Origin: Calothrix sp. CSU_2_0
Lineage (GTDB): Bacteria; Cyanobacteriota; Cyanobacteriia; Cyanobacteriales; Nostocaceae
Direction: 5' to 3'
Length of the DNA stretch: 64,000 nucleotides
Assembly (NCBI GenBank): GCA_012034595.1
Contig: JAAUPE010000011.1
Span: forward strand, 1 to 64,000
In this document: in pieces, positions 13,939 through 30,773 of the stretch
Position numbering within the stretch: the stretch's first letter is position 1
How the letters are laid out: every line of letters begins with the position of its first letter
Position numbers and translations under genes: made by a program
The notes under the pieces: generated by a model
What the model was told of the DNA's origin: nothing
Seen by the model: the letters and a program-made list of their open reading frames with translations, nothing else
Database searches by the model: none

Positions 13939-14051
13939 AATAATTTTATTTGCAATTTAGAAAATTAGGGATTCATTTTAGTGTATTTCCGTTATTGTGA
14001 CGTAAGGGAGCAATCCCAAAACCTTGATTTTCCCGACAGATTGGGTAAGTC

Positions 14052-14807: not shown

Positions 14808-14967
14808 TGTTAAGTTCCTGACTGCTTGTGGTTACAGTAACAGGATTACTCCTTAGTTCCAGTCAACGATGAACAAGACCATTTTTGTATTTTTATTTCG
14901 ATGCAACGTAAAACAATAAGTAGTGATGCAAAAATATTTATACATCTCGAAAACCCCAAACCCTTGG

Positions 14968-15062
14968 GATTGCTACTCTACCCTTCGGGAACCCTCTACC
15001 CTGCGGGAAGCGCAGAGCGCAACGAGGGAACGAGAAGACAGGGAGTGTCTACCTTACGTCGC
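14968..15062. repeat. 95-bp dispersed repeat, copy A
   Basis: Identical over 95 bp to 31052-31146. It contains short inverted segments (CCCTTCGGGAACCC, CCCTGCGGGAAGCGC). It lies in the intergenic region before topA, and no reading frame is conserved. It resembles the small dispersed repeats common in Nostocales. Confidence 0.85.
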
Positions 15063-15226
15063 AATGACATATATATTTAATTTTGCCTAACCACTTATAT
15101 GCTTCTACAGCATCTCAATTAAAAATCGCTATAGATATATTTGGCAAGAATTGTAACTGAAAGTGAAAAAATCCAAACAACTGTACTATAAAAATTAAGA
15201 AGTCCTTTGTTTTTGATTAAGGTGTC

Positions 15227-17437
15227 ATGGCAAAACGCCTTTTAGTGGTTGAATCTCCTGGTAAAGTGAAAAAGCTCAGTCAAATTCTGGGTGCTGATTG
15301 GATTGTACGCGCTAGCTGCGGTCATATTCGCGAACTTAGTAATGATGGGGAAGATTCCCTGGGGTTTACGATGGATGGTAGCAGTGTTCAATGTCGCTAT
15401 ATCCCTCGTGACCAAAGAGCGAAAGAAACGATTCAAAAACTGAAGGATGCGGTTCGACAGGTTAATGAGGTCATTTTAGCAACCGATCCTGACCGTGAGG
15501 GGGAAACTATTGCTTGGCATTTGAAGGAAGCTTTGAATTTAAAGGATCCAAAACGGGTTGTTTATACTGAAATTACCGAATCTGCTGTGCGTGCGGCTAT
15601 TTCTCATCCAAGAAAGTTAGATGTTAATTTGGTTGGTGCTGGTTTATGTCGGGATTGTTTGGATAAGTTGGTTGGATATAAGGGAAGTCCACTTGTTTGG
15701 GCTTTGAATAATGGTGCTAAAAGTGTTGGTAGGGTTCAGAGTGCGACTTTACATTTAATTTGTCGGAGGGAGAGGGAAATCGTTGCTTTTGTTCCCCAAG
15801 ACTATTGGAGTGTTTGGGTTGATTACGCTGAGGGTTTTCGCGGTTTTTATAAGGGGATTCTCTGTGATGGTGTTGAGGAACCAAAGTCGGAGACGGAAGT
15901 TAATGACGATACTACATATAAAAGTAATGAATCATTAGAATCGACTCGTGTGTTATCGGAAGCTGAAGCTAATCGTTTAGTTGAAGAAGCTAAAAAGCAT
16001 CCACACCAAATTATCAAATATGAGGGAAAAATTACCAGTCGTCAACCACCTCCACCTTTTATTACTTCGACTCTTCAACAAGCTGCTGGTTCGCGATTGA
16101 AGTTTGCTCCTGAAAAGACGATGCAGATAGCACAAAAATTATACGAAGCTGGTCTAATTACTTACATGCGGACGGATTCTGTGATGTTGAGTCCAGAGTT
16201 CTGTGATAGTGTCCGTAAGTGGTTGGAGGAAAATGACCCGGAGAATGTCCCTCCCAAAACTACAAGACATAAAAGTAGTAAAACGGCTCAAGAAGCACAT
16301 GAGGCTGTTCGTCCTACGGATGTTTTCCGTCCTTCTGCTCATTTACGAATTGAGTTATCGACGGATGAATTTAATTTATATGTTTTAATTTGGAAGCGGG
16401 CTGTTGCTTCTTTATGTCGTCCTGCCCAGTTACGCAAAACTCTTGTAATTACCCAATCTGGTCAAATTTTGTGGCAAGCTAGGGGTCAGGTGGTGGAGTT
16501 TTTTGGTTATGCTAAATATTGGTTAAATTTGAGTAAGGATGCGCTTCTACCTAATTTGCAGCAGGGACAAATGCTGAGTTTGGCAGATTCAGGACATGAA
16601 AAGAAGCAAACTCAACCTCCTCCTCGTTATAGTGAACCGAAGTTGGTGCAGTTGATGGAAAGGAAAGGAATTGGTCGTCCAAGTACTTACTCCCCAACGA
16701 TTGCCACTTTAAAAAAACGGGGTTATGTGGAGCTAATGAAGGATAATCTCAAACCGACTGTTTTAGGTTTGGAGGTTGATGAGTTTTTGCAAAAAGCTTT
16801 ACCCGATTTACTGGAAACTGAATTTACTGCGAAGATGGAAGATGCTTTGGATGCGATCGCATCTGGTAAGCAGCCTTGGCAACAGTATCTCACGAATTGG
16901 AATCAAAGTTATTTTGTTCCGGCTTTGGCTAAGGCGAAAACTGTTCCTGTTGCTGTGTCAAAGGTTAGTAATAGTAGCGATCGCAATTTTGATAAGTCTC
17001 GCACTCGTTGTCCTCAGTGCAATAATCATTTGGTGAAAATTCCCAGTAGCAAGGTAAAGAAGAAGTATTTTTTGAAGTGTGTAAGTGGATGTGAGAATGT
17101 GGTGTTGTTTTGGAGTGAATACAGCAAAAGTTGGGAAGCTCCTCGTTCTCAATCTGCCAAAGAAAAGGATATTAGTCCCGAAAAGTCGAAAACTAGTCCA
17201 ACTACTTTAACTACATTTCCCTGTCCTGTATGTAAGAAGTCTCTGGAGGAATATTGTTACACCAAAGATGGGCAGGATAAGAAGTTGTTACGCTGTTCTG
17301 ATTCTAAATCTCGAATTGATGCTAAACACAAGGATGTTGCTTTTTTCTATACTGCGAAGGGGTGGTGGAGTCCTAAGTTTGGTAATCTTGAGGTGACATC
17401 TGGTAAGGGTTTGAAGAAGAAGTCGGGTAAAAAATAA
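15227..17437 (+). CDS. topA: Type IA DNA topoisomerase
   Basis: Relaxes negatively supercoiled DNA by single-strand passage. The Toprim domain occupies about the first 140 residues (VVESPGKVKKL and the metal-binding DPDREGETIAWH). The catalytic tyrosine is Tyr313 in ITYMRTDSV. RKGIGRPSTYSPTI around residue 485 is the conserved central motif. The C-terminus carries two Cys-rich zinc-ribbon-like repeats (CPQCNNHL..CVSGC and CPVCKKSL..LRCSD) and a basic tail. At 736 residues it is on the short side for a chromosomal cyanobacterial TopA. It sits next to parA and an integrase, so it could be an accessory or plasmid-type copy rather than the housekeeping enzyme; the window cannot decide. Confidence 0.92.
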   Translation: MAKRLLVVESPGKVKKLSQILGADWIVRASCGHIRELSNDGEDSLGFTMDGSSVQCRYIPRDQRAKETIQKLKDAVRQVNEVILATDPDREGETIAWHLKEALNLKDPKRVVYTEITESAVRAAISHPRKLDVNLVGAGLCRDCLDKLVGYKGSPLVWALNNGAKSVGRVQSATLHLICRREREIVAFVPQDYWSVWVDYAEGFRGFYKGILCDGVEEPKSETEVNDDTTYKSNESLESTRVLSEAEANRLVEEAKKHPHQIIKYEGKITSRQPPPPFITSTLQQAAGSRLKFAPEKTMQIAQKLYEAGLITYMRTDSVMLSPEFCDSVRKWLEENDPENVPPKTTRHKSSKTAQEAHEAVRPTDVFRPSAHLRIELSTDEFNLYVLIWKRAVASLCRPAQLRKTLVITQSGQILWQARGQVVEFFGYAKYWLNLSKDALLPNLQQGQMLSLADSGHEKKQTQPPPRYSEPKLVQLMERKGIGRPSTYSPTIATLKKRGYVELMKDNLKPTVLGLEVDEFLQKALPDLLETEFTAKMEDALDAIASGKQPWQQYLTNWNQSYFVPALAKAKTVPVAVSKVSNSSDRNFDKSRTRCPQCNNHLVKIPSSKVKKKYFLKCVSGCENVVLFWSEYSKSWEAPRSQSAKEKDISPEKSKTSPTTLTTFPCPVCKKSLEEYCYTKDGQDKKLLRCSDSKSRIDAKHKDVAFFYTAKGWWSPKFGNLEVTSGKGLKKKSGKK

Positions 17438-17443
17438 AATACT

Positions 17444-17486
17444 TTCTTTCACTCAGGTAGAAAGTGATGACTTTTTCTTTTTATCT
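17444..17486 (+). terminator. Probable topA terminator
   Basis: A 7-bp stem (ACTTTCT ... AGAAAGT) shortly after the topA stop codon is followed by a T-rich stretch (gactttttctttttatc). The stem is weak but well placed. Confidence 0.5.
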
Positions 17487-17602
17487 CTCTGTTTTTTATT
17501 TTTTCATCGTCTTTTTGAGGTGCGATCGCAATTTTTCCCTATTTATTTTTGAAGATTGCTACGTATATTAAATAATATAACACTAAATATTGATATATAA
17601 AT

Positions 17603-17734
17603 CATTTAACTATGCTCTATTCACACACTAATTAAATTGACATTTAAGTGTCTCAGCATTTAAAAATTCAAATGTTTAATATGATTTGGAATAAAGTTTA
17701 AACATTTAGATGCTATTAATCATTTAAACATCTA
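17603..17734. repeat. Iteron-like CATTTAA(ACATCTA) repeats upstream of parA
   Basis: At least six copies of CATTTAA or its complement occur in about 130 bp: 17603, 17641, 17657, 17670 (AAATGTTTAA), 17696 (GTTTAAACATTTAGATG) and 17721 (CATTTAAACATCTA). The same words recur after the integrase (21757-21880) and at 22871-22916. Clustered words before parA suggest partition or regulator binding sites or plasmid-type iterons. Confidence 0.6.
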
Positions 17735-17783
17735 TATATTAAGTACAAAACCTGATATTATTTCTCAAAATTCTGTAAAAACT

Positions 17784-18374
17784 ATGATTGTGACGGTAGC
17801 AGCGTTTAAAGGTGGGGTTGGGAAATCTACAACTGCACTGCATTTGGCTACATACTTGCAAACAAAGGCTGATACCCTACTAGTGGACGGTGATTTAAAT
17901 CGTAGTGCGTTGGATTGGTCGAATAGGGGCAGTTTACCTTTTAAAGTGGCTGATGAAGAAGAGGCTATTAGTTTAGCCAAGCTTTATGAGCATATTGTTA
18001 TTGATACGCCATCTCGTCCAAAGACTGATGAACTCAAGAAGTTGGCACGAGGTTGCGATTTTTTAGTTATTCCTACCACACCAGATGCGATCGCATTGGC
18101 AGCGACTCTAAAAATGGTTAATGAGTTGCAGGGTGTGAGGGTTAATTACCGTATTCTCTTAACTCTTGTGCCACCTTATCCGAATAAAGCTGGTGAGGAG
18201 GCTAGGGAGACTTTAGAAAGTGCTGGATTACCTATATTTAAGACGGCTATAAGACGCTTGACGGTGTTTCAACATGCGGCTTTGGAGGGTGTGCCAGTAA
18301 ATGGGGTTAAGGATGCTTACGCGCAAATTGCATGGCGTGGTTATGTTGAGGTGGGTAAGGAGATGTTGTCTTAA
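17784..18374 (+). CDS. parA: ParA-family partition ATPase
   Basis: A 196-residue deviant-Walker ATPase, close to small plasmid ParA/ParF length. The Walker A is KGGVGKST (residues 9-16), Walker A' is VDGDLNRSALDW (about 37-48), and Walker B is IVIDTPSRP (about 71-79). There is no N-terminal DNA-binding domain. No ParB gene is adjacent; the small protein at 18929-19192 has the size and features of a ribbon-helix-helix partner. The repeats upstream fit a partition or autoregulation site. It would move or tether a replicon or element over the nucleoid. Confidence 0.88.
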   Translation: MIVTVAAFKGGVGKSTTALHLATYLQTKADTLLVDGDLNRSALDWSNRGSLPFKVADEEEAISLAKLYEHIVIDTPSRPKTDELKKLARGCDFLVIPTTPDAIALAATLKMVNELQGVRVNYRILLTLVPPYPNKAGEEARETLESAGLPIFKTAIRRLTVFQHAALEGVPVNGVKDAYAQIAWRGYVEVGKEMLS

Positions 18375-18464
18375 TAGTCAGGAGTCAGAAATCAGGTGTC
18401 AGGATAATTAAGTTTCAAAAGTTAAATTGTTATTTTAATTAAGGAGTAAAGAATTACTGTCACT

Positions 18465-18489
18465 AACCCAGGGCTAAAGCCACTGGGTT
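18465..18489. repeat. Stable hairpin downstream of parA
   Basis: AACCCAG-GGC-TAAA-GCC-A-CTGGGTT forms a 10-bp stem with a tetraloop. No T-run follows, so it is not a classical terminator. Its position about 75 bp before the IscB-like remnant would suit a subterminal hairpin of an IS200/IS605-type element; this is tentative. Confidence 0.5.
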
Positions 18490-18564
18490 TGCAAGAGGGG
18501 AAATAACCACTTCCCTGAATCAGGTTAAACAAGTGTCTAGCTAATTAAACTGAATTGTCTGTGC

Positions 18565-18903
18565 ATGGTATCCCAAAACACCCAATTAATTGAAATTGTC
18601 CCATTAGAATTTCATCGTCGCCAACTTCATCGCTTACAGCACTCTGTTGGGCATATCCGTCCCAGGTATGGCGGAACAATTAGCGCTGGGTTCAAGCGTG
18701 GTTCAGTGGTAAAACATCTAAAGCATGGCTTCTGTTATGTAGGTGGTTGGCAAGAATCGCCAACTAAAAAATATCCAAACAGAAAAACAATTAGCTTGCA
18801 CAGTCTTGGAACTGGTAAGCGATTCACACAAAATGCGACCCCCAAAGATTGCATTTTTAGAACTTACGGCTCATGGAGAATATCCAAGCCGTGTTTCCTC
18901 TAA
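18565..18903 (+). pseudogene. C-terminal remnant of an IscB-like (RRXRR/HNH) protein
   Basis: A 112-codon open frame. Its phrases RRQLHRLQ, RYGGTISAGFKRGSVVKH, YVGGW and ISLHSLGTGKRFTQNA resemble, from memory, the C-terminal part of RRXRR/IscB-type RNA-guided nucleases encoded by IS200/IS605-related elements. The RuvC and HNH parts are missing: an in-frame stop at 18538 closes the frame, and the upstream sequence shows no continuation. It is most likely a decayed insertion, not an expressed gene. A +1-frame reading from 18743 overlaps it and is not supported. Confidence 0.45.
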
Positions 18904-18928
18904 GTTTCCACACATCCCACGAGGTTTT

Positions 18929-19192
18929 ATGAGTACGAAGAAGAAAACTAGTCGTTTTGATGATTTGATTGATGCTGCTCGTAGTCGTCAACAACGTGAT
19001 GAGTTACCATCTACGGAAGCAAAGTTAGATGCTAAAAGTAAAAGTACTGACCCTAACTATATCCGAACAACTGTTTATTTGCCGAAGCAATTACACAAAA
19101 GAATGAAAGCTACTGCATTGTCTCAAGATAAGCAAATGAGTGATGTTATTGCAGAATTAGTTGAACAGTGGTTGTTGAATCAACAAAGTTAA
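18929..19192 (+). CDS. Small ribbon-helix-helix-like protein, probable ParA partner
   Basis: An 87-residue protein. The basic N-terminus (STKKKTSRFDDLIDAARSR) is followed by a linker and a C-terminal ribbon-helix-helix-like segment (IRTTVYLPKQLHKRMKATAL, then MSDVIAELVEQWL). The ATG at 18929 is preferred because a CGAGG ribosome-binding site lies just upstream, whereas the longer frame to 18743 runs through the IscB-like remnant. It may act as the centromere-binding or repressor partner of ParA and bind the clustered repeats; this is inferred from gene order. Confidence 0.7.
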   Translation: MSTKKKTSRFDDLIDAARSRQQRDELPSTEAKLDAKSKSTDPNYIRTTVYLPKQLHKRMKATALSQDKQMSDVIAELVEQWLLNQQS

Positions 19193-19352
19193 TTATTAAT
19201 GGTTAATCGTTAATAGCTATTAATTGGTAATGTACTTTTAGTTCACTTAATTTTTTAAGTTAAAGTGTGCTTAGACATCAATATATTTTGAACTAATTTT
19301 ATGTTTACTACCTTCCAATTATTCCTATTAACTATTAACCACTAATTACTAA

Positions 19353-20033
19353 CTAAAGTGCAATTTCCTCACCCTTTTCGGTAAAGCGAACATCTTTAAT
19401 CTTCCATTGACTATTGCTTGTCAAAGTTTTGCGAAGACTGCCAAATAAAGCGAATTGTTCGCAACTTGAAAGTGAAGTTAATATGCGTTTGGAATTTGGA
19501 GATAGACGTAAATCAACGGTGGCAATACCGTTTTTAACGTTGACACGATATCCAGAAAGGCTAAAATCCCCATTATCCCGTCCTTCTAGTATCTTACCCA
19601 CCGCACCTGCTAGGGGTTCTTGTACGGAAACTGGAGTTTTTTGAGCGACTAGTTCTTGACATTCGGCATCGCTAGTATAGACTGTTACATCTGTTGTTTT
19701 ACCCCCAGGTGTTTCGGTAGTAGAAGGAATTTTGTTGTATGCGATCGCATTTTTAGTTGGTTTTGCTTCGCTTTGGTTTATCTTTTCCCGTAACTTAGCT
19801 ACACTTGGTGATGGATTTGGGGATGGGGTAGTTTTAATTTCTGGTGCTTCATTGGTTGGTGTTGGAGAAGATGTGGGTGTGCTGGGTGCAAATGCCGCAA
19901 TACTTGGTGTTGCTGTCGCTTCAGGGGTTGAACTACCGTTATTATTTGCGGTAGGGTTAGATGCACAGCTGCTGATAGCAACTGCAATGACTGCAATAAC
20001 CAAGGGGAATATATACTTTTTCTCTGTATTCAT
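19353..20033 (-). CDS. GerMN-like lipoprotein
   Basis: A 226-residue lipoprotein. The signal peptide contains a lipobox (AISSC, Cys at about residue 23) and is followed by about 90 residues of Pro/Thr/Ser-rich linker. The C-terminal domain (about residues 110-226) has the GerMN pattern: VYTSDAECQELV, then YRVNVKNGIATVDL, then SSCEQFALFGSLRKTL. GerMN domains occur in cyanobacterial envelope proteins with unclear function. It converges with the ribbon-helix-helix-like gene. The start at 20033 gives a good signal peptide. Confidence 0.65.
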   Translation of the reverse strand: MNTEKKYIFPLVIAVIAVAISSCASNPTANNNGSSTPEATATPSIAAFAPSTPTSSPTPTNEAPEIKTTPSPNPSPSVAKLREKINQSEAKPTKNAIAYNKIPSTTETPGGKTTDVTVYTSDAECQELVAQKTPVSVQEPLAGAVGKILEGRDNGDFSLSGYRVNVKNGIATVDLRLSPNSKRILTSLSSCEQFALFGSLRKTLTSNSQWKIKDVRFTEKGEEIAL

Positions 20034-20273
20034 AGATTTTTTGATTCTCCTGCTACCGTGGGAGTTAACATTTAACTTCAGTGTGAGGAGCGATATTTCC
20101 GTATAATTTTGTGGTTTTGAAGAAAGTTACTTCAAATTGCGATCGCGAAGTGACTCCGATGGGAGTATCGCTTATCTTTACAGATAATATCTTATTCGCT
20201 GGTGATAATTTGCGTCTGTTTGCCCGATATCATTCTATCAAAAAGTAGTGATAATTAATGCTTACAATTGTCT

Positions 20274-21752
20274 ATGTATAACACTGATGCTAGTACGTAT
20301 GACCCTCGAAAAGCTGAATGGGAAGGTGTATCCATAGAAAAATGGGATACTGCCAAATGGAAGCAGTGGAAAGCTAAAAACTCAGTTGCTGATGATTTGT
20401 CTAAGATTGAGCGTGAATATCTACGAATTAAACATGCTGTTCACGTTGCTAATTCGGCGTTAAGTTTGGAACGGGTGAAGGTTAAAATTAAGTTAACTAG
20501 TGCAAAATCTATTGGTTTGCAAGGGACTTTTCCATGTAAAACTGGTGATGTCGGGAAGAATGGTAGTAAGAATAAACAATATACGATTTCTTGCGGTTTT
20601 ACTGCAAATGATTTAGGGGTGAAATCGGCTGTGGCTAAAGCTCGTGAACTTGATTTATTATTAATTACTAAACAATTTCAATGGACTCCTGAATTGCTGG
20701 GTAAGCAGTCTCAAAATCATCAAAATCAGTTTTTGAGTGAAGATAAAAACCCAGAGAGGTTAATTTGTGAATTAGTCCAGGAGTATGAGCAGGAATTTTG
20801 GAAAACTCACATCAAAAATCGTCAGGGTTTGCGAACTTGGGATAGTCATTATCTGCGGCATTTGAAGAAGTTACCCCAAGACATGCCATTAACTTTGGAT
20901 GCTTTGGAAGATGCTTTGGAAAAGACAAAGCCAAATACTTCATCGCGATTTTTTTTATCTTGGCAATTAAAGAAATTTTGTGATTTTTGCGGTTTTGATG
21001 GAGTCAAAACTGTTAATTCCTACGCGACTCCTAAACCAAATCCAGCAATTAGAAGAATTCCTTTAGATGAGGAGATTATCGAAGGTTTTAATTTGGTTGG
21101 AAGTCCTCTTTCTCCATTTGCTAGTAAAGATAATCTTACTTTTCCTGAACAATGGCAATGGGCTTATGGTATGTTGGCGACATATGGATTAAGACCCCAT
21201 GAATTATTTGCTGTTGATTTGAATGCTTTTACTAGTTCAGAAAATACTTTTCATCTATTACGATTAAATCCTAGTTTAACTGGAGGAACTAAAACGGGGG
21301 AAAGAAATTGCGGTGTTCCTCCTATACATCCCCATTGGGTAGATTTATTCGATTTAAAAAATGTCAAACTTCCTGTAACTGGGGGTACTTTAAGCAATCA
21401 AGCTGCAAAATTACATATTCGTTTTCGTAATGTCAATTTAAATTTTCGTCCCTATGATTTGCGTCATGCTTTTGCTATTCGAGGACATCGTTTGCAGATT
21501 CCGATTAAGACTATGGCTGATTATATGGGACATACTGTGCAGGAACATACGAGAACTTATCAACGTTGGATGAGTGAGGATGCAAATTTGGAGATTTATA
21601 AGGAAGTGGTGATTAATCGGATGGGGGGAAGTAGGGAAGCAATGAAGCGAAGGATTAGGGAGTTGGAAGCTGATGTCTTGGTTTTGAGGGGGGAGAATGA
21701 GACTTTGAAGGGTATTTTACGTCAGCATGGGTTGGGGGAGTTTTTAGAATAA
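20274..21752 (+). CDS. Tyrosine recombinase / integrase
   Basis: A site-specific recombinase of about 492 residues. The C-terminal catalytic half shows Arg in YGLRPHELFAVDL, the box II phrase RPYDLRHAFAIR, GH in ADYMGHTV, and the nucleophile Tyr in TRTYQRWM. The N-terminal half has a SAM-like core-binding region. After the catalytic Tyr there is a coiled coil (RRIRELEADVLVLRGENETL), unusual for simple integrases but common in cyanobacterial element-encoded ones. The ATG at 20274 is preferred to the TTG at 20268. It forms an accessory module with parA and the flanking repeats. Confidence 0.87.
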   Translation: MYNTDASTYDPRKAEWEGVSIEKWDTAKWKQWKAKNSVADDLSKIEREYLRIKHAVHVANSALSLERVKVKIKLTSAKSIGLQGTFPCKTGDVGKNGSKNKQYTISCGFTANDLGVKSAVAKARELDLLLITKQFQWTPELLGKQSQNHQNQFLSEDKNPERLICELVQEYEQEFWKTHIKNRQGLRTWDSHYLRHLKKLPQDMPLTLDALEDALEKTKPNTSSRFFLSWQLKKFCDFCGFDGVKTVNSYATPKPNPAIRRIPLDEEIIEGFNLVGSPLSPFASKDNLTFPEQWQWAYGMLATYGLRPHELFAVDLNAFTSSENTFHLLRLNPSLTGGTKTGERNCGVPPIHPHWVDLFDLKNVKLPVTGGTLSNQAAKLHIRFRNVNLNFRPYDLRHAFAIRGHRLQIPIKTMADYMGHTVQEHTRTYQRWMSEDANLEIYKEVVINRMGGSREAMKRRIRELEADVLVLRGENETLKGILRQHGLGEFLE

Positions 21753-21756
21753 AGCT

Positions 21757-21880
21757 ACATCTAGATGTTTAAAATTTTATGCTTTTTCCAAATGTTTAAA
21801 TGTAAGTGATAATTACGATCGCAGTGAATTTGGAAATAATCATCTTTGTTTTGTTGCTTTTGCGTTTAGATGTCTAGATG
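21757..21880. repeat. TAGATGTTTAAA-type repeats downstream of the integrase
   Basis: ACATCTAGATGTTTAAAA (21757-21774), AAATGTTTAAATGT (21790-21803) and TTTAGATGTCTAGATG (21865-21880) share the same words as the cluster upstream of parA. They may be binding sites of the ribbon-helix-helix-like protein, or arm sites of the integrase. Confidence 0.55.
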
Positions 21881-22108
21881 CAAAATAATTCTAATATATC
21901 CTGATGTGTATTAATTATTTTACTATTTGTAACTTGTATTACCTTCACATTACAGTAATTACGTGTTTTAATTTAAGGCTATTTTGTGAATGTGCCTCTA
22001 TGCAAAGATTTTAAAAGAATAGGAGATTGCAATAATGTTAACGAACTACTATACATAAACATTAATTTTTATAGTACTGCAGTACTCTGCCTGCTTTTCG
22101 TGAGGTTA

Positions 22109-22171
22109 GAAGTTGGGTTACTGAATTACTCCCACTAATGTTCCCGTTTTGTGGAGGAGGAACCCGACTTC
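22109..22171. repeat. Dispersed inverted repeat (GAAGTTGGGTT / AACCCGACTTC)
   Basis: A near-perfect 11-bp inverted repeat with 41 bp between the arms, next to a HIP1 octamer. A related copy with perfect arms is at 27031-27095. It is a small palindromic repeat element with no coding potential. Confidence 0.6.
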
Positions 22172-22184
22172 GAATGCGATCGCA

Positions 22185-22763
22185 CTATTGGCAAATTATC
22201 TGTAAATCTAAAATGAACCCTGGTAATACATCTTCCCCTGATATTTGGGTGGGATTTTCAAGAATTTCTACGGGTTTTCCTAAGCGATATATTTCAACTT
22301 GATGTAATTTACGGTTAATTAACCAGCCTAGTTTTACCCCGTTACTGATATATTCTTGCATTTTTGCTTGAGTTTCCTTAAGACTGTCGGTTGGTGACAT
22401 TAACTCTAGAACAAAATCAGGTGCGATAGGGGGGAATTTTTCTTGTTGTTCGGTAGTAAGTGTATTCCATCTTTCATTACTAATCCAGGAGATATCGGGG
22501 GAGCGGTTTGCTTTGCTCGGTAGTTGGAAGCAGGTGGAGGAATCGAATAATACACCTAGTTTTGCTTGGCGATTCCAAATGACAAAATCTGCTCCTATTT
22601 CAATATTACGCTTTCCTGTTCCTCCTCCTGTTGGTGGCATAATTACGATTTCTCCGTTGCTGTTGCGTTCAAATTTAATTTCGGGGTTATTTTGACACAG
22701 TTGATAAAATTGGTCGTCGGTGAGTTTAATGATGTGGTTAAGGTTGATTGTGATGGCTGTCAT
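22185..22763 (-). CDS. Uma2-family (DUF820) nuclease-like protein
   Basis: A 192-residue protein of the Uma2 family, which is abundant in cyanobacteria and has a PD-(D/E)XK restriction-endonuclease fold. Visible motifs are the N-terminal DDQFYQLCQNNPEI, GEIVIMPPTGG, the core SPDISWI and DFVLELMSPTD with LKETQAKMQEYI, and a C-terminal EDVLPGFILDL. Length is typical. Biological targets are not established for most members. It is not clearly part of the retroelement downstream; its stop lies on the integrase side. Confidence 0.88.
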   Translation of the reverse strand: MTAITINLNHIIKLTDDQFYQLCQNNPEIKFERNSNGEIVIMPPTGGGTGKRNIEIGADFVIWNRQAKLGVLFDSSTCFQLPSKANRSPDISWISNERWNTLTTEQQEKFPPIAPDFVLELMSPTDSLKETQAKMQEYISNGVKLGWLINRKLHQVEIYRLGKPVEILENPTQISGEDVLPGFILDLQIICQ

Positions 22764-22870
22764 GGGGATGACGGGGGTATGGTTATGGTTTTAGGTTAGC
22801 GTAATTTTTCGCGGAAATAGAAAGGTGCGATAAGCGGAGCTTAACGTTAAGGACGTATCGTGTTTTTATA

Positions 22871-22916
22871 AACTTAGATGTTTATATGTTTTATGAAAAT
22901 GTTAAATGTTTAAGTG
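22871..22916. repeat. Third TAGATGTTTA / AAATGTTTAAGTG repeat cluster
   Basis: AACTTAGATGTTTATATG (22871-22888) and AAATGTTTAAGTG (22904-22916) match the parA/integrase repeat words. The rest of the gap 22764-23136 shows a dispersed-repeat fragment around a HIP1 site and no convincing gene. Confidence 0.5.
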
Positions 22917-23136
22917 TTTTTTTAAGTTGGTTTTCTGCGTGGGGGATATTTTGTGGGGTGCGTTTGCTTTGCGATCGCGCGTGGATGAGTCGGATAAATT
23001 TTCGGTTTTGCAACCTACCAAAGTATCCAACTCGGTTTTATATTTAGATAAAATTGTTTTTATCGCTGGAATAGGTCTGGACTCCCTTTTGTACGCTCGA
23101 TAAATTCCCATTTACCAATTCTGACTTTTAGGAGCG

Positions 23137-23262
23137 CTCACGCAGAAAACAAGACGACCCGAAAACCGTTGTTGTTGTTACGATTATCGCGCGTATTGTT
23201 GTTGCGATTGGCACTGCGACAGTTTTCTGGGTTGTTGTTCCAGGAACCACCACGCAGCAGCT
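23137..23262 (-). ncRNA. DGR template repeat (TR)
   Basis: A noncoding 126-bp segment that aligns without gaps to 24962-25087, the 3' end of the kinase-FGE gene. It differs at 12 positions, all T on the + strand of the TR, that is A on the coding (minus) strand: nine A-to-T and three A-to-G. Runs of AAC codons lie exactly where the target varies. It starts 20 bp after the reverse-transcriptase stop, on the same strand. It would be transcribed as the template RNA for mutagenic retrohoming. Confidence 0.95.
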
Positions 23263-23281
23263 AAATTTGCCTATCCCTTGT

Positions 23282-24340
23282 TTATGTTCTCACAAATGCG
23301 ATCGTGGCAAATATTTTTTTTCGCAATCGCCAGGTATTTCCATGTTTTAGGTGTCCTATCCAGCTTTGTAAGCTTTGGGAAATCTTTTTTTGGGTGATTT
23401 GACCTTGAGTATAGTTTAGTTGCATTCTTCGCAATCTGCGCCGCGATCGCTTTAAGTTTTCGGTGCGAACTCGAATCCGGTCTGGTAGTATACGGAAACC
23501 AAGAAAGTTGGCTCCGTGATTGGTTTTAAATAATTGGCTTTTGATTGGGTGTAGGTTTAATCTTAATTGGGTTAAATATTCTTCTATGGCTATTTTACTT
23601 TCGGCTAATGCTTGTTTATCTTCTCCAAATAGAGCAAAATCATCGACGTAACGGATATATTTTTCAATTTTTAGTTGTCTTTTAATAAAGTGGTCAAATT
23701 CGTTTAAATAAACATTGGATAGAAATTGACTTGTTAAGTTACCAATTGGTAAACCGCGTCTGCGTTGAGTTGGTGTGAGTAGGTTATCTCCGGGAAAGTA
23801 TTCTATAACTAATTCTTGAGGATTGCTGTTATCGATTACTTTATTGATTAACCAAAGTGTATCGACGCATTTAATTTTGTGTTTTACTAGGTTTTTTAAA
23901 ATTTCATGGTCAATACTGGCAAAATATTTTTTAATGTCGCATTGGAGAATATAGGTGCTGGAGCGTGCAAATTTTGTAAATCGACGTAATGCACGGTGGG
24001 TTCCAAAACCGATACGATTTGCGTAGGAGTCAAATATGAATGTGCGTTCAAAAATTGGTTGAATTATATTATGGATGGCATGATGAACAATTCTATCTCG
24101 ATATGGTGCGGCTGAAATTATACGGGGTTTAGGTTCTAATATAGTGAAGGTTTTGTAAGCACCGCGTTTGTAAGTTTGAGTTTCTAATTCTATTTTTAGT
24201 TGAAAGAGTTCGTTTTCTAGGTTGTAATTAAAGCTTAAAACACTATCTCGAAATCTCTTGCCTTTTTGGGCTTTTTTGGCTGCTGATAATAGATTTGAAT
24301 AATCTATTATTTGATTCCACAAATTTCTATATCTTTTCAT
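23282..24340 (-). CDS. DGR reverse transcriptase
   Basis: A 352-residue reverse transcriptase of the diversity-generating retroelement class. RT motifs are visible in order: [32 protein letters not shown], the DGR-type signature IGNLTSQ (residues 199-205, in place of the QG-containing motif of group II intron RTs), the catalytic YVDD (residues 231-234), and ANFLGFRI. There is no maturase or endonuclease domain. It copies the template RNA with adenine-specific errors. Order on the minus strand is target, avd, RT, TR. All catalytic residues appear intact, so the element may be active. Confidence 0.95.
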
Positions 24341-24349
24341 TAATTTCTA

Positions 24350-24488
24350 TTGTAGGTTGGGTTAGACGCACGAAACGTATGGAAGTTTAACGAATAATTT
24401 GTTTTGCGTCGTAACCCAACGTTTAGATATCTCGGATAATTTAAAAGTACAAATTTTGGGTTAAGCAAAGCCTCCACCCAACCTACAA
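24350..24488. mobile_element. MITE-like element between avd and RT
   Basis: A 139-bp segment bounded by perfect 13-bp terminal inverted repeats (TTGTAGGTTGGGT at 24350-24362, ACCCAACCTACAA at 24476-24488). CTA is present immediately outside both ends, a possible 3-bp target duplication. An internal GTAACCCAAC adds a partial third arm. It contains no gene and exactly fills the space between the avd stop and the RT start region. Confidence 0.65.
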
Positions 24489-24833
24489 CTAATATGTTTT
24501 TTGGCGTTGTTGCTTTATCCAAGAGCCTAAATCTATACCAATGCTATTGATTAATTTGCCGACATATTCGTGTCTTTCTGCTTGAATTAACTGAAAGTCT
24601 AATAATAGTCGGGTTTGATGCCTTAATATGTCTAATTTAGGATTTAGCGATTCTAATTGGGTTAGTTTTTCTTTGGCATAGCGGGCTGATATTAGCTGTT
24701 CTAATAGCTCATAAAGTCCTTTAATAATTCTGTCTCCTAATAGCAATTTATGGTCGCGTGGCAATCGATTGAGGATGGGCACGTACCATTTAATTAAGTC
24801 GTAGGTTTTTTGAATTATTGGTAAATCTGACAT
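24489..24833 (-). CDS. avd: DGR accessory variability determinant (Avd-like four-helix protein)
   Basis: A 114-residue, all-alpha, basic protein. Its start (LPIIQKTYDLIKWYVPILNRLPRDHKLLLGDRI) and heptad-like pattern (LYELLEQLI, LRHQTRLLLDFQLI) match the four-helix-bundle Avd proteins that bind the DGR reverse transcriptase and the template RNA. The position between target gene and RT on the same strand is the usual one. The C-terminus (LGSWIKQQ) is family-like. The stop codon abuts the MITE-like element, so the last codon could have been shaped by the insertion. Confidence 0.88.
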   Translation of the reverse strand: MSDLPIIQKTYDLIKWYVPILNRLPRDHKLLLGDRIIKGLYELLEQLISARYAKEKLTQLESLNPKLDILRHQTRLLLDFQLIQAERHEYVGKLINSIGIDLGSWIKQQRQKTY

Positions 24834-24863
24834 TCTACAATTTTACATTAAAGTGCCTAAAAA

Positions 24864-24894
24864 ACATAAAAAAAATCGATCCGCCATAAGGCGG
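24864..24894 (-). terminator. Intrinsic terminator of the DGR target gene
   Basis: On the minus strand CCGCC-TTAT-GGCGG (24881-24894) is followed by ATCGA and a run of eight T. It lies about 70 bp after the target stop codon. That is too far for the cruciform described a few bases beyond the homing site of the Bordetella phage DGR, so a terminator is the better call. Confidence 0.7.
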
Positions 24895-24961
24895 AAAAGG
24901 AGAGTGAAAAGTAAAGAAGTGTAAAGGGAAAAAGAGGAAGAGGGAAGAGGGGAAGGGAATC

Positions 24962-25087
24962 CTCACGCAGAAAACAAGACGACCCGAAAACCGTTGTAGA
25001 TGAAACGATTAACGCGCGTATCGTTGAAGCGATAGGCACTGCGACAGTTTTCTGGGTAGCTGCTCCAGGAACCACCACGCAGCAGCT
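24962..25087 (-). repeat. DGR variable repeat (VR)
   Basis: The last 126 bp of the kinase-FGE gene, including the stop codon, aligned gap-free to the TR. Ten codons differ: residues 594, 595, 596, 604, 606, 608, 611, 614, 615 and 616. Nine of these are Asn and one is Asp in the TR reading. The last 35 or so bases, from the codon for residue 617 to the end, are identical in both repeats and are where an IMH-type homing signal would lie. Confidence 0.95.
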
Positions 25088-26843
25088 TTCTCTGATTATC
25101 ATTACCGCTTAATCTAGCACTGCCGTCAGTTGGCGCTTGAGAATAATTGTCATTCCAAACGTCTTGACACCATTCCCACACATTCCCGTGCATGTCGCAC
25201 AAACCAAAGGCATTTGGTGGAAATTTCCCTACTTCTGTTGTTTCCTTTCTATAAACTCCCTTGGGTGCAGAGCCATAAGGTGTCACAGTGCCATTATAAT
25301 TAACTAAATCAGTTGTAATCGTCTCCCCAAAGTAAAACGGTGTAGTTGTCCCCGCACGACAGGCATATTCCCATTCTGCCTCGCTGGGTAATCTGTAATT
25401 ACGTCCTGTTTGTTGACTGATTTTCTTACAAAATTCCACACCATCATCCCAAGATACTTGTTCCACAGGTCGATTTGCACCTTTGAAACTAGCAGGATTA
25501 TTCCCCATAATGGCTTGATACTGTGCTTGGGTGACTGTGTACCTCCCCATGAAGAAACTAGGAACTTGAACTTGACGCTGTGGACTTTCGTCTTTGCTTC
25601 TACCTACTTCACTTTCTGGAGAACCCATCGTAAAGGTTCCTCCTGGTATCTGTACCATGTCCAAGGTGACACCATTCCCCAAATCTTCAGCCAAGTATTT
25701 CGCGTTTAATTTCCTGCGATTGTTAATTGTTCCCTTGCTATCTACCGTCACAGTTTCAAAATTCAAGGTTTGCAGCGAGAAATTAGACTTTGTTGCGGTT
25801 TTGCTAACAGGGGATGATGTTGATGTTGGTAAAGAGTCGCGTGTTCCTGAGTTGGTTATTTCGCCAATATCCGATTTCTGTGGTTCTTGGGTATCCCGCA
25901 TAAATATTTTGCCCCCAAGGAAGCTTAACCCAACTCCCGTACCTAACCAACCCAAAGTTTTTAGGATTTCGCGTCGTTGTTTTGAATCGGGTTGGGATTG
26001 AGATTGAGGTTTTGGCTTAGGTTTGAGTGCTGTAACTGCATCCATTGCATCAAAAGCACTTTGATACCTGTCATTAAAGTGGTATCGCACCATCTTGGTT
26101 AAAACATCAGCCATTTTTCCGTTGACATTTGCCCAGTTTTGCCAGATGATGTCACCAGTTTTTGGGTCTTTGGGCAACTCGTGGGGTTGTATCCCCGTTA
26201 AAGCGTATATTCCCAAAACTCCAATTGCATGAATATCGCTACTAAGTTTCGGCTGTCCGTTACTCTGTTCGCTAGGCATATATCCAGGTGTACCAATCGC
26301 CACGGAAGGGATTGTTTGCCCTTGGGGACTCATCATCAATGTGCCGATTTCTTTAACTGCACCAAAGTCAATCACAACTATTTTCCCGTCTTTGTGACGA
26401 CGCATTAAGTTTGCTGGCTTAATGTCGCGGTGAATGATATTTTTATTGTGGATAACTGTAAAAACTTCGAGTATTTCCTGTAATAGCTGAGTAACTTCTG
26501 CCTCACTCCATTGCTTCCCAGGATATATTTCTCGGCTCAAGTCTTGCCCATCAACAAATTCTTGAACTAGATAAAATTCGCCATTGTCCTCGAAGTGAGC
26601 AAATAATTTAGGTATTTGGTCTGATTCATTCCCCAAGCGATATAAAACCTGAGCTTCGTTTTCAAACAGCCTTTTGGCAACTTCTAATATTCCTGGATTC
26701 GGATTATATTTAAGCTGCTTAACTACACATTTGGGATGGTTGGGTAAATTTATATCTTCGGCTAAATATGTATCACCAAATCCACCACTGCCGATAATTT
26801 TGATGATTCTGTATCGGTTTTGGAGAATTTGACCGATATGCAT
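24963..26843 (-). CDS. DGR target: Ser/Thr kinase fused to FGE/C-type-lectin-like domain
   Basis: A 626-residue protein. The kinase domain spans about residues 10-270, with a Gly loop (GSGGFGDTY), Lys42, HRDIKPAN at 138-145 and DFG at 159-161, all intact. A Pro/Gln linker and one hydrophobic segment (about 295-312) suggest a membrane crossing. Residues of about 395-626 form a formylglycine-generating-enzyme/sulfatase-modifying-factor fold (GGTFTMGSPE, RLPSEAEWEYACRAG, GNVWEWCQD). The variable residues lie in the last 35 positions, where lectin-fold DGR targets place their binding surface. The extracytoplasmic domain could bind variable ligands and signal to the kinase; this is inferred from domain order. 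Confidence 0.93.
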   Translation of the reverse strand: MHIGQILQNRYRIIKIIGSGGFGDTYLAEDINLPNHPKCVVKQLKYNPNPGILEVAKRLFENEAQVLYRLGNESDQIPKLFAHFEDNGEFYLVQEFVDGQDLSREIYPGKQWSEAEVTQLLQEILEVFTVIHNKNIIHRDIKPANLMRRHKDGKIVVIDFGAVKEIGTLMMSPQGQTIPSVAIGTPGYMPSEQSNGQPKLSSDIHAIGVLGIYALTGIQPHELPKDPKTGDIIWQNWANVNGKMADVLTKMVRYHFNDRYQSAFDAMDAVTALKPKPKPQSQSQPDSKQRREILKTLGWLGTGVGLSFLGGKIFMRDTQEPQKSDIGEITNSGTRDSLPTSTSSPVSKTATKSNFSLQTLNFETVTVDSKGTINNRRKLNAKYLAEDLGNGVTLDMVQIPGGTFTMGSPESEVGRSKDESPQRQVQVPSFFMGRYTVTQAQYQAIMGNNPASFKGANRPVEQVSWDDGVEFCKKISQQTGRNYRLPSEAEWEYACRAGTTTPFYFGETITTDLVNYNGTVTPYGSAPKGVYRKETTEVGKFPPNAFGLCDMHGNVWEWCQDVWNDNYSQAPTDGSARLSGNDNQRKLLRGGSWSSYPENCRSAYRFNDTRVNRFIYNGFRVVLFSA

Positions 26844-27834
26844 AGATTTACCCAGGCTACGTATTGATTGATTTTATTCTGCCATATTCGAGTTTGATAT
26901 TGAGTGTTTTTATCTTTGGATTTTTGCGATCGCGGAAAAATTGAAATTGTCATTTGGAGTTAGAAGACGGGTTACTGGGTTTGTCGTGCTGACGAAGGAA
27001 GCATCTTTTTGGAGTTTTTGCGTGGGGTTAGAAGTCGGGTTATTTGGCTTGTCGTGCTGAGTTGGGATATTTTGTGGTGCGAGGAACCCGACTTCGGGGT
27101 GCGTTTGTTTTGCGATCGCAAATTCAGGTTTTTGCTTGAAATCTTTGCTATATAAGCTTTTTAATTAGGATACTTGTATTTCTTGCTATGTTGGAATTTT
27201 GCGAAATTATTCTGGCATGTAATATTCATTCAATATTTGTGGCTATTTTTACTTCTGAATCTAAAATTCTTAAGTTTTATTACTTAAGTAGTGAATAAAT
27301 TTTACCTCTATCTAAAGAGGCTTTTATAGCTAAAACTATGCAACTTTGTGTTGATTATCGCTGTAATTCTTTGGCTGGCATAGGTTGTAGATTGTTATTT
27401 TTAATTTAGAGCTTTATGGTTGCTAAATATAAAAATCTATTTTTCTGCGCTAAAGTTACTATAATTACTTCTTTAGCTTATATAATTTACCAATCCATAG
27501 ATTTTAGATGTAACTATAAAGTAAGCAATATTTAATATTTAGTTTGATTTTTAATTAAGCTTTCTTTTACTGCTTAATTTAAGATATTTACCTTACATAC
27601 ATCTTGAACTTACGATTTAACACTAAAACACAACCACAAACAACTGATTTAGATGAAAAAACGACTTGTGGTGCGATCGCATGGCAATATTGGCAAAAGT
27701 CTATATCATAAAAATAATTGTAAGTCAAGAGAAAACTTTGATTTCGCGTAAAAAAGGAGGTGCTAAAAGTAAGAAAAAAGTAAGAAATGAAATTTAGTAT
27801 AAAGCTTGAAAGTACTGTAAATAGGGGATAAAAA
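26844..27834. other. 991-bp intergenic region with dispersed palindromes
   Basis: No gene is supported. It holds two related repeat units (from about 26960 and 27028, each with 'gttagaag.cgggtta' and 'tgtcgtgctga'). The rest is AT-rich and probably contains promoters for the divergent kinase-FGE and rsmA genes. Confidence 0.6.
27031..27095. repeat. Dispersed inverted repeat (GAAGTCGGGTT / AACCCGACTTC)
   Basis: A perfect 11-bp inverted repeat, 43 bp apart, followed by 'ggggtgcgtttgttttgcgatcgc', which recurs around 22957-22980. A degenerate extra unit precedes it at about 26960. Same family as 22109-22171. Confidence 0.65.
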
Positions 27835-28659
27835 ATGGTTCAACCGCGCAGGGTCCATGCCCAGCATTGGCTCAAAAGTGAGCAGGCTTTGGGTAGTATA
27901 TTGGAGGCAGCAGCTTGTCATGAAAATGACCGAGTACTGGAGATTGGTCCAGGAACTGGGATTTTGACACGGCGTTTGTTACCTGTTGTTGGGGGTTTAA
28001 TTGCGGTGGAAATTGACCGTGATTTGTGTAAGTTATTGACAAAACAGTTGGGAGAAAGGCAGAATTTTTTACTTTTACAAGGTGATTTTTTGGAGATAGA
28101 TTTATCCTTTTTATTAAATAATTTCCCCGCTTTTCAGAATCCGAATAAGGTAGTAGCTAATATTCCATATAATATTACTGGTCCAATTATTGAGAAGTTA
28201 TTGGGGACAATCAGCAATCCAAATCCACAACCTTATGAATCCATAGTGTTACTCATACAAAAAGAAGTAGCAGATAGAATAGTTGCTAAGGCAGGTTCTA
28301 GAGCTTTTGGAGCTTTAACTGTGCGTGTATCATATTTGGCAAGATGTGAGTATATTTGTACGGTTCCAGCTAAAGCATTTTATCCAGCCCCAAAGGTAGA
28401 TTCAGCAGTGGTAAGATTGACACCACGTCCATTGGAAGTCGCAGCCAATGACCCGAAGTATTTGGAAACTTTGGTAAAATTAGGATTTAGCGCCAAGCGG
28501 AAAATGCTACGAAATAATTTGCAAACTGTAATTGAACGCGATCGCATGACGCAAATTCTGGAACAATTAGATATAAATCCCCAATCCCGTGGTGAAGACT
28601 TGAGTGTTGAGCAGTGGGTAAGGTTGGGTAATGAGTTAAAAGAATTGAGCAATGCGTAG
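27835..28659 (+). CDS. rsmA: 16S rRNA dimethyladenosine transferase
   Basis: A 274-residue enzyme that dimethylates two adjacent adenosines near the 3' end of 16S rRNA during 30S maturation. The SAM-binding motif VLEIGPGTGILTRRLL is near residues 34-49 and the catalytic NIPYNITGPI is near 111-120. The basic C-terminal domain is full length (FSAKRKMLRNNL). It begins VQPRRVHAQHWLKS, typical of cyanobacterial RsmA (KsgA). It overlaps the true ispE start by 8 bp, a conserved rsmA-ispE arrangement in cyanobacteria. Confidence 0.95.
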   Translation: MVQPRRVHAQHWLKSEQALGSILEAAACHENDRVLEIGPGTGILTRRLLPVVGGLIAVEIDRDLCKLLTKQLGERQNFLLLQGDFLEIDLSFLLNNFPAFQNPNKVVANIPYNITGPIIEKLLGTISNPNPQPYESIVLLIQKEVADRIVAKAGSRAFGALTVRVSYLARCEYICTVPAKAFYPAPKVDSAVVRLTPRPLEVAANDPKYLETLVKLGFSAKRKMLRNNLQTVIERDRMTQILEQLDINPQSRGEDLSVEQWVRLGNELKELSNA

Positions 28660-29592
28660 TTATAGTTTGATTGCACCTGCAAAATAAATTTATATTTGGA
28701 AATCATTGGGGATAGACCCGACGGGTATCATGAGTTAGCGATGGTGATGCAGAGTATTCAGCTTGCTGACCAGGTTGATATTAGTGCGAATGGAGATGAA
28801 AAGATTCGCTTGCGTTGTCAGAGTTTGGAAGTTCCCAACGACAAAACAAATTTGGCATATAGAGCTGCGGAGTTGATGACAAAAAAATTTCCCGACGTTT
28901 TTGCCAATTATGGTGGTGTTGATATTACCATTCACAAAAATATTCCCGTCGCTGCGGGTTTGGCAGGAGGTTCCACAAATGCAGCAGCAGTATTGGTAGG
29001 GATAGATTTATTGTGGAATCTTGGACTTACTCAGCCGGAAATCGAAGAATTAGGTGCTTCATTAGGTTCTGATGTTCCATTTTGTGTGGGAGGAGGAACC
29101 GCGATCGCAACTGGAAGAGGAGAAAAACTTGCTTCTATTTTGGGATTGGAGGATATATATATAGTATTAGGGAAGCACAAAAATCTCTCTGTATCCACTC
29201 CTTGGGCATATAAAAGTTATCGTGCAGCATACGAGGATAGTTATATTCGAGAGAAAAAAGACTTGGTAGCACGTGCCAAAGCAGTACATTCAGCACCAAT
29301 GGTACAGGCTATTATTCATAAAGACATCCAAGAAATTTGTCAGCACTTACATAACGATTTAGAGAAAGTCGTATTACCTGAATATTCTCAAGTATCGGAA
29401 TTACGGACAACATTTGCAGATTCAGGAGCTTTGGGTACAATGATGTCAGGTTCTGGTCCCAGTGTTTTTGCAATTTGCGAATCAAAACCACAGGCAGAAT
29501 CGATTAGGGAGAGAGTACAAAAATTAATTCCTGATACCAGTCTAGAATTATTTGTGACAAAATTAATTTCCCATGGAATTCAAATTGTATAA
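28652..29592 (+). pseudogene. ispE: 4-diphosphocytidyl-2-C-methyl-D-erythritol kinase, frameshifted near the start
   Basis: IspE phosphorylates CDP-methylerythritol in the MEP isoprenoid pathway. From the ATG at 28652 the frame reads MRSYSLIAPAK and then stops. One more A in the run at 28681-28684 would give [20 protein letters not shown], the expected N-terminus. The remaining frame (from about 28696) is intact, with the GHMP ATP motif PVAAGLAGGSTNAAA and the C-terminal MMSGSGPSVFA. The lost PAK-N segment carries substrate-binding and catalytic residues, so a TTG start at 28696 would give an inactive enzyme. A 1-base sequencing error in the A-run, RNA-polymerase slippage, or a functional copy elsewhere could explain it. 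Confidence 0.85.
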
Positions 29593-29627
29593 ACTTTTTG
29601 CGTCTCTGCGCGACACTTAATTTTATT

Positions 29628-30773
29628 TTATTCCCCAAAATCAGCAACCGACCAACCCAAAACCCTCTCATACAAAGTCTCATAGACAGAACAAATTTTA
29701 GCGCCACCATGACGTTGAGGACGACGAACTACTTGGATTGGATAAGTCAAAGAATTATTTAACTTTGCAGCAAAATCCACACCAAGAACACCAATAAAAT
29801 CAAACTGCGACACAGTTTCTTGAATCGCTTCCAGCAACCTTACGTCATCAATCGGACAAGCAAAACAAAAATAATTGCAAAAGTTTAAATAACTCCCCCA
29901 ATTTGCACCAAATTCAAAATCATTTGCATCACTGACTATTTTTACCGCAAACAAATCTTTAGGAAACTTCATATTCCATCGCACAACACCTACCAAATCC
30001 AACCTCAATTTTTGACTTTCCTCCCCCACAGTCACATCTAAATGAGTTCCCCAATTTTGTGGAGGATAATTTGTAGCCGCACATTCCTGCATCCAAGTAA
30101 AATCAGCTTTTAGAGCGCGGTTAATTGTCGGTGCAACTTGACGATAAGTAAAATTGTTTGTAGGATTCGGTATCGTTACAGCTTCGACATCCTTTTCCCC
30201 CAAACTTCGCTCGATAAAAGTAGAAAAATTAGACGCATCTTTCCATTGACCCAAATACTCAATCCGACCTTCCTCACCCTTCGGAGGTCGTCCCCGATTT
30301 GTGCGAACCTCCGTCGCTGGTGGTCGATAATCCTTTTCTATTTGACGACATTCAGCAACCGTTACATCCCCCGCAAAAACCCGCTCTCGTAAAGTCTCAA
30401 AGACAGGTGTTGGTGCTTGACGTTGGACTTTTTCTAACCTCTCCAACGCTTCCGGAGCAATTTTTGCCGCATCCCCTACCTGTTCCAAATCATCAGAACC
30501 CGTTAACTTCAAAAAATATTTTGCAGCTTTAACAAATCGCCATAATAAAGAAGGTTCACGATTATTATTTACTGCTAACTGACGAATCCAAGCGGAAAAC
30601 GAAGAAAACCCTTTTTGCTTGTAGAGTTTTTGTTGCTGGACTTTAAGAGTTAGTTTTGCCAGTTCTGTCCAATCTGCCCTACTTCGAGAAAGTAATTGAG
30701 ATAGACGAACCTCAATTTCTTCAAGCTGCCCCTCTGATGATTTCGAGGTTGGTACTGTATTTATAAATTGCAT
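29628..30773 (-). CDS. Protein with possible MmcB-like nuclease-fold C-terminus
   Basis: 381 residues, not recognised with certainty. The N-terminal 150 residues are helical and basic (LLSRSRADWTELAKLTLKVQ, FSSFSAWIRQLA), like a coiled or DNA-associated region. A linker follows (RTNRGRPPKGEEG, AT-hook-like RGRPP). The C-terminal part contains DLFAVKIVSDANDFEFGANW followed by YLNFCNYFCFACP, resembling the K-x-S-x-x-D-F...KW..Y...CD.FYFAV pattern of MmcB-type DNA repair proteins. Palindromic DNA lies just upstream of the start. No operon partner. A role in DNA binding or repair is inference. Confidence 0.55.
   Translation of the reverse strand: MQFINTVPTSKSSEGQLEEIEVRLSQLLSRSRADWTELAKLTLKVQQQKLYKQKGFSSFSAWIRQLAVNNNREPSLLWRFVKAAKYFLKLTGSDDLEQVGDAAKIAPEALERLEKVQRQAPTPVFETLRERVFAGDVTVAECRQIEKDYRPPATEVRTNRGRPPKGEEGRIEYLGQWKDASNFSTFIERSLGEKDVEAVTIPNPTNNFTYRQVAPTINRALKADFTWMQECAATNYPPQNWGTHLDVTVGEESQKLRLDLVGVVRWNMKFPKDLFAVKIVSDANDFEFGANWGSYLNFCNYFCFACPIDDVRLLEAIQETVSQFDFIGVLGVDFAAKLNNSLTYPIQVVRRPQRHGGAKICSVYETLYERVLGWSVADFGE

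Follow-up and report, generated by a model that had tools for sequence, protein, structure and literature searches.

An RT-14-like RNA follows the TR of a Calothrix DGR and recurs in TR/VR cassettes that lack a neighbouring RT

Introduction

When a TR and a VR differ only at adenines, two questions follow: whether a DGR wrote the differences and could still do so, and whether such a template has to stay beside the enzyme genes. Both are raised by a locus of Calothrix sp. CSU_2_0, in a stretch of 64,000 nucleotides (contig JAAUPE010000011.1, positions 1 to 64,000) that is called the window here. In the DGR of Bordetella phage BPP-1, TR-to-VR rewriting is A-directed and involves RT and Avd. DGR-type RTs carry the motifs IGxxxSQ and YxDD, and known DGRs have a stem-loop on the VR side, just downstream of the VR.

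Results

The locus reads target-Avd-RT-TR-RNA on the minus strand. Its parts, and two genes that lie before it in the window, are the following.

17784..18374, plus strand: ParA-type ATPase (PF01656, 44.6 bits, cut-off 25.4)
20268..21752, plus strand: tyrosine-recombinase-like gene (PF00589, 24.1 bits, under the cut-off of 27.1)
22983..23139, minus strand: structured RNA, RT-14-like, directly 3′ of the TR (RF02921, 46.5 bits; model R1, 148.6 bits, a score that is not independent, R1 having been built from 26 sequences that include the window and the copies C102 and C37 of the same genome)
23137..23264, minus strand: TR, from the TR/VR alignment, beginning 17-19 nt past the RT stop codon
23282..24340, minus strand: DGR-type RT of 352 aa with IGNLTSQ and YVDD (PF00078, 87 bits)
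24489..24833, minus strand: Avd of 114 aa (NF033474, 133.5 bits, cut-off 80; PF22296, 64.3 bits, cut-off 40)
24880..24895, minus strand: hairpin just 3′ of the VR (terminator-like scan, one found against a shuffle mean of 1.7, weak alone)
24962..25089, minus strand: VR, a 128-bp match to the TR with 12 differences at TR adenines
24963..26843, minus strand: target gene of 626 aa, a Ser/Thr protein kinase (PF00069, 109 bits) with a C-terminal FGE-sulfatase domain, C-type-lectin-like (PF03781, 185 bits)

PF03781 spans residues 395-622 of the 626-aa target, and the VR is the 3′ end of this gene, stop codon included. A first-pass annotation of this DNA had called the RT and Avd intact, and indeed both frames are open, as is that of the target, and Avd matches NF033474. 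The RT scored 144.8 bits with the group II model TIGR04416, under its cut-off of 300, and no DGR-RT-specific NCBIfam model was among its matches. Its nearest relatives are in Nostocales cyanobacteria; RTs 55-74% identical occur in named cyanobacteria, many with a TR right after the RT. A hairpin comparable to the one 3′ of the VR was seen by eye at the same place in C37.

The region from 17784 to 21752 also holds a ParG-like protein, below cut-off, and RrnaAD and GHMP-kinase genes lie on the other side of the DGR. Together, the ParA, ParG-like and recombinase-like genes make an integrated plasmid or island possible. A Uma2-family gene (22185-22763) adjoins the RNA end of the DGR.

The TR (23262-23137) and the VR (25087-24962), both on the minus strand, form a gap-free alignment of 126 bp. 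Twelve positions differ between them: from TR to VR, nine change A>T and three change A>G, and no C, G or T position is altered (0/92 non-A differences). Adenines make up 34 of the 126 TR bases, and the chance of all 12 differences falling at A is 2.8e-8 (hypergeometric). Both the gap-free alignment, with its coordinates and counts, and the restriction of the differences to TR adenines had been reported in the first-pass annotation, and both were reproduced by our recount; the identity runs 2 bp further on the 5′ side, to 128 bp. A repeat finder reported the TR/VR pair as the sole direct-repeat family of at least 40 bp in 14000-30000. Ten codons are altered from TR to VR. Nine are the Asn codons (AAC/AAT) already noted, and the tenth, GAT>GTT (Asp to Val), was absent from the earlier list; the accompanying remark that AAC and AAT cannot turn into stops is correct and holds for NNC/NNT codons.

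Directly after the TR lies an RNA element of about 155 nt, which was not among the parts named earlier. Its fold has 40 pairs in 26 cyanobacterial sequences, 33 of them compensated in at least one sequence. With Rfam RF02921 (RT-14), the window element falls under the gathering score of 48.1 bits and C102 lies above it (49.4 bits), both as full-length matches, and the C37 RNA was not listed at E 0.1. Base pairs are retained in 97.5% of cells at RT-adjacent loci, 94.2% in the cassettes described below (a set of 32 that includes G128:C1a) and 91.5% in fused loci, in alignments that were fitted to the RNA model and lean towards it. In BPP-1, a structured spacer 3′ of the TR recruits RT-Avd and primes the cDNA, according to PMC12875486. 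By analogy, the RNA element is probably the counterpart of that spacer and would bind RT-Avd and prime. The window differs from BPP-1 in that its TR is downstream of the RT and its RNA is an RT-14-like element; compared with the Rfam family, the RNA stands out here by its link with the 3′ side of a DGR TR, also where an RT is lacking.

Relatives with an RT next to the TR agree with the window. Among 55 RT-adjacent TR/VR pairs (57 loci taken, two without a detectable VR), 49 have at most two non-A differences; these final figures come from realignment, nine of the 55 pairs having values of 18 or more in the ungapped comparison. Because 12 of 12 differences are at A, RT and Avd match their families, RT-adjacent relatives are matched as well and a compensated RNA follows the TR, we are nearly certain that a complete DGR is present in the window, one of the cyanobacterial kinase-FGE type, which would work by A-directed TR-to-VR homing. 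The first-pass annotation had likewise seen a complete DGR with past A-directed mutagenesis, and the parts and relatives bear it out. By the example of known DGRs, the TR transcript with its RT-14-like 3′ element would be bound by RT and Avd, the RT would prime on it and copy the TR RNA into cDNA, inserting random bases at template adenines, and this cDNA would replace the VR, altering mostly Asn codons of the kinase's C-terminal sensor domain.

On logical grounds, gene conversion was discarded as the source of the TR/VR matching, because it would make the A differences vanish too. The pair could also be dead, homing having ceased. The window record is that of one assembly, but the 0/92 non-A differences, the open RT and Avd and the retained RNA pairs make a dead pair unlikely. 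It is plausible, from the open frames and the RNA pairs, that the element is still competent, as the first-pass annotation suggested, although a single assembly cannot show competence. As for a second strain of the locus, a DGR RT was not found at E 1e-30 in two genomes of the same genus.

R1 finds the RNA three times in the source genome, in the window and on the contigs C37 and C102. The C102 copy belongs to a second full DGR, whose RT is 67% and Avd 68% identical to those of the window and which has 15 of 15 TR/VR differences at A. In C37, a target is accompanied by a TR and an RNA of its own, with a VR-to-TR gap of 185 bp, and RT or Avd matches are absent from the 9 kb examined. Fifteen of its 16 TR/VR differences are at A, the other being a C/G five bases from the end; at non-A sites, its TR differs from its own VR at 1/94 positions versus 14.6% from the nearest other TR compared. 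Two full DGR RTs came up in the RT search of this genome, along with three matches at 24-27% identity. Because of the 15 of 16 differences at A, the gap of 185 bp, the two full DGR RTs and its being one of three RNA copies, we lean towards the window or C102 machinery also copying the C37 TR in trans. The C37 and window RNAs differ in 17.7% of aligned columns, and recognition by one RT is an assumption. Beyond the RNA, the C37 contig continues for just 465 bp, and with genome completeness at 96.5% an RT may have been overlooked. A frameshift in this assembly divides the C37 target into two overlapping frames (L015 1434-1479), so the cassette may be dying.

When the genome was searched with the window TR, the local VR was joined only by the copies of TR and VR on C37 and C102 and by short partial matches; the latter, in C306 and C258, were judged by eye not to be VRs. 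A similar stretch of about 140 bp was seen by eye in the window (24350-24490, between RT and Avd) and in L015 (300-440, beside the C37 TR), and is perhaps a small repeat element. At L015 3285-3377, both strands weakly match the whalefall-1 RNA, under the gathering score, which perhaps reflects an inverted repeat.

Beyond this genome, R1 has matches in 47 of 100 relatives at E 0.001 and, at E 1e-8, in at least 106 of the 217 genomes of the family; RT matches at E 1e-25 are found in 59 of the 217. Among the 106 RNA-bearing genomes listed, 47 have an RT match of at least 300 residues, 9 a partial one only and 50 none. From the matches listed, we examined 93 loci in which no full RT directly precedes the TR, leaving out RNA matches weaker than about E 1e-9 and, for example, G165, G231:C1004, G186:C40, G170, G140:C12 and G204:C38. 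With C37 they make 94, namely 32 target-VR-TR-RNA cassettes, 29 fused target-RNA loci, 7 loci with RT remnants and 26 others. One of the 32 cassettes, G128:C1a (L183), is followed closely by Avd and RT, which makes it a full DGR in rearranged order and leaves 31 RT-less cassettes; in the stretches examined for these 31, no RT or Avd was found at E 1e-4. In L183, the TR-RNA precedes Avd and RT, all on one strand, which is the opposite order to the window. Another rearranged order is seen in L131 (G055:C39), where the TR-RNA precedes a target with a matching VR (14/31 A and 0/79 non-A sites differ) and an Avd match comes after.

The RT-less cassettes have closely matched TR/VR pairs. The median non-A difference is 1.05% in the 31 cassettes and 0.0% in the RT-adjacent pairs (n=55), the cassettes being slightly less clean (p 0.033 for 32 pairs, G128:C1a included); at A sites, the difference is 0.50 in the cassettes (again 32 pairs with G128:C1a) and 0.47 in the RT-adjacent pairs. 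The first TR/VR scans penalised non-A mismatches and thus favoured clean pairs. The cassette search was rerun without this penalty, which added five decayed or partial cassettes and gave a median of 1.5% for the 36. Zero non-A differences are seen in G129, G225, G190, G156, G220 and G116. At the other end, three of the five added cassettes are decaying, with 14 non-A differences each, out of 95 sites in G048a, 97 in G113 and 89 in G180. Many cassettes share a leader, seen by eye, in which the TR is preceded by a hairpin and a promoter-like TTGATA-N18-TACATT; a promoter scan of L161 returned that site alone, with 1.9 sites expected in shuffles.

VRs were also compared between species, in pairs with gene-body identity of at least 80% (best 40). 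The VRs of G128:C1b and G129 differ at 0/95 non-A and 21/30 A sites, their TRs at 0/95; those of G129 and G225 at 0/95 and 17/30; and those of G190 and G156 at 1/99 and 16/25. Other pairs are less clean, for example G208 and G203:C139 (15/100 non-A, 20/25 A). As the VRs differ at many shared TR adenines and hardly elsewhere, rewriting continued after the lineages split. One could instead ascribe A-only differences to selection on the protein, without any retrohoming, as the altered codons fall in a domain thought to bind ligands. However, selection would not leave synonymous and non-A sites untouched, as they are between G128:C1b and G129 and in the window (0/92), and we give this explanation practically no credence.

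In the fused loci, the target continues straight into the RNA and a separate TR is absent. In two of them (G247, G252:C1c), the place of the VR holds a near-copy of another genome's TR, with 1/26 adenines changed, as expected if recombination between VR and TR had deleted the intervening DNA, like a solo repeat. The remaining fused loci are distant from every cassette TR compared. A fused target's own mRNA could serve as its template. In L176 and L178, the fused targets encode Asn-rich, nearly unaltered template sequence at the sensor site.

The RNA tree has 156 leaves, leaving out L136-L138 (decayed fused loci, by hand) and RNAs shorter than 140 nt; the RNA is short, and many of the nodes have weak support. 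Changes between the RT-adjacent and RT-less states number 31 on the tree; 500 shuffles gave 51 on average and never fewer than 42. The largest clade without any RT-adjacent RNA comprises 31 leaves, which come from 28 genomes (one per species); its SH-like support is 0.955, and the window RNA is placed in a larger group that contains it. In this main RT-less clade, the VR-TR gap is 189-203 bp in 13 of 14 cassettes and 328 in the other. The RT-less state thus seems to have been both gained repeatedly and inherited.

Where could these cassettes obtain an RT? Within the main RT-less clade, an RT match of at least 300 residues occurs in 6 of the 28 genomes and a fragment in 3, and the other 19 have none. 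RT-less genomes include the near-complete assemblies of G129 and G225 (2 contigs each) and G011 (4). A hidden DGR RT was sought with PF00078 in 11 genomes (G000 included), some of whose matches lie beyond the 30 loci screened; 28 of the 30 gave a frame, L224 probably a wrong one, and none of the 28 frames had an IGxxxSQ-like motif. Fifteen RTs gave group II, retron and DRT models as their best NCBIfam matches, nearly all under curated cut-offs, which makes the labels tentative. L290 of G129 is without the DGR motif and barely similar to the window RT, and G011 has no PF00078 match. Nor was a full RT in the genome associated with cleaner cassette TR/VR pairs (13 with versus 18 without, p 0.76; p 0.38 when the five decayed or partial cassettes bring those without to 23; p 0.89 and 0.46 with G128:C1a still counted).

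DGR RTs do occur on plasmids: six cyanobacterial plasmids carry such RTs at 64-68% identity, one over just 70% of the length, and the RNA is present in all six stretches, right after the RT in five. Related RTs in phage records are all less than 60% identical, and the three relatives from viral contigs are 36-41% identical.

From these sequences, we infer that the RT-less cassettes are non-autonomous and depend on enzymes acting in trans, with plasmid-borne RTs as possible suppliers. Two observations speak against a trans model, as most genomes of the main RT-less clade are without a DGR RT and RT presence is unlinked to better matching. The clean pairs in RT-less genomes would reflect either late RT loss in each, supply from outside or something else. 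One possibility is that the cassettes are fresh wrecks of complete DGRs, produced by recent, independent deletions of RT and Avd, the TR/VR match being a memory. This would account for the RT remnants beside the TR at 7 of the 94 loci, the clear decay in G048a, G113 and G180, the RT fragments that are all that is left in G008, G159, G172 and G227, the repeated losses implied by 31 state changes, and the 19 of 28 clade genomes without a DGR RT match. However, recent wrecks should not form a well-supported clade of 31 elements in 28 genomes without an RT-adjacent member, nor share a gap of 189-203 bp in 13 of 14 cassettes, nor have VR adenines re-randomised between species with non-A sites and TR nearly fixed, as in G190 and G156. 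Overall, we find the wreck explanation possible and rather doubtful.

Alternatively, the RT may come and go on plasmids or islands and keep the cassettes matched, the RT-less isolates having lost it recently. The six plasmids with DGR RTs and the RNA fit this, as does the position of the window DGR near ParA and a recombinase-like gene. Yet plasmid action on chromosomal cassettes is conjecture, and the lack of any link between a full RT in the genome and TR/VR matching (p 0.76 and 0.38) points the other way; an itinerant RT is conceivable, and we would not favour it. Our own reading, which we hold tentatively and with a little less than even confidence, is that of a long-lived class of non-autonomous cassettes, each a sensor gene with a stand-alone template-RNA gene (own promoter, leader hairpin and RT-14-like RNA), which would outlive their RT and be served by RT-Avd in trans from other loci or plasmids. 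A second class would be formed by the loci whose RNA is joined to the target, where the target's mRNA could act as template.

Discussion

Taken alone, the window DGR is ordinary. The cyanobacterial DGRs of PMC7517822 resemble it in RT, TR, a Ser/Thr kinase target with a C-terminal CLec domain and a VR at the 3′ end, and that report assigns remote targets in the same genome by TR identity. The passages compared do not describe RT-less targets that have a TR and an RNA to themselves (PMC7517822). Activity of the window DGR is made credible by analogy with Nostoc punctiforme, in which PMC12691664 reports a highly expressed TR RNA and low-level A-specific mutation by resequencing.

Loci that have lost their RT are known elsewhere. 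In the single genome of Thiohalocapsa PB-PSB1, some are read as diversified in trans; their VRs match another locus's TR, whereas the cassettes here keep their own TR and RNA (PMC10907252). The leftover targets of Treponema denticola survive without RT, as here, but also without a TR (PMC4891356). We did not find RT-less TR-RNA cassettes described as a class in the passages compared, and an earlier report is possible.

If the cassettes are served in trans, several sensors could be diversified by one RT, and surveys led by the RT, such as the metagenome survey PMC8144416, which starts from RT genes, would miss them. The cassettes make trans recognition of a DGR template RNA directly testable and offer a small template module separate from the enzyme. 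Clean TR/VR pairs in genomes without a DGR RT are a puzzle in their own right.

Finally, the RNA element has a precedent away from the RT. In Nodularia spumigena CCY9414, PMC3610870 describes a strong start site 199 nt after a DGR RT, with a proposed ncRNA, and about 70 further copies of the ncRNA element in non-coding regions as insertions; these copies occur without RT but are not TR-VR cassettes. In G162, perhaps strain CCY9414, R1 gave 4 matches.
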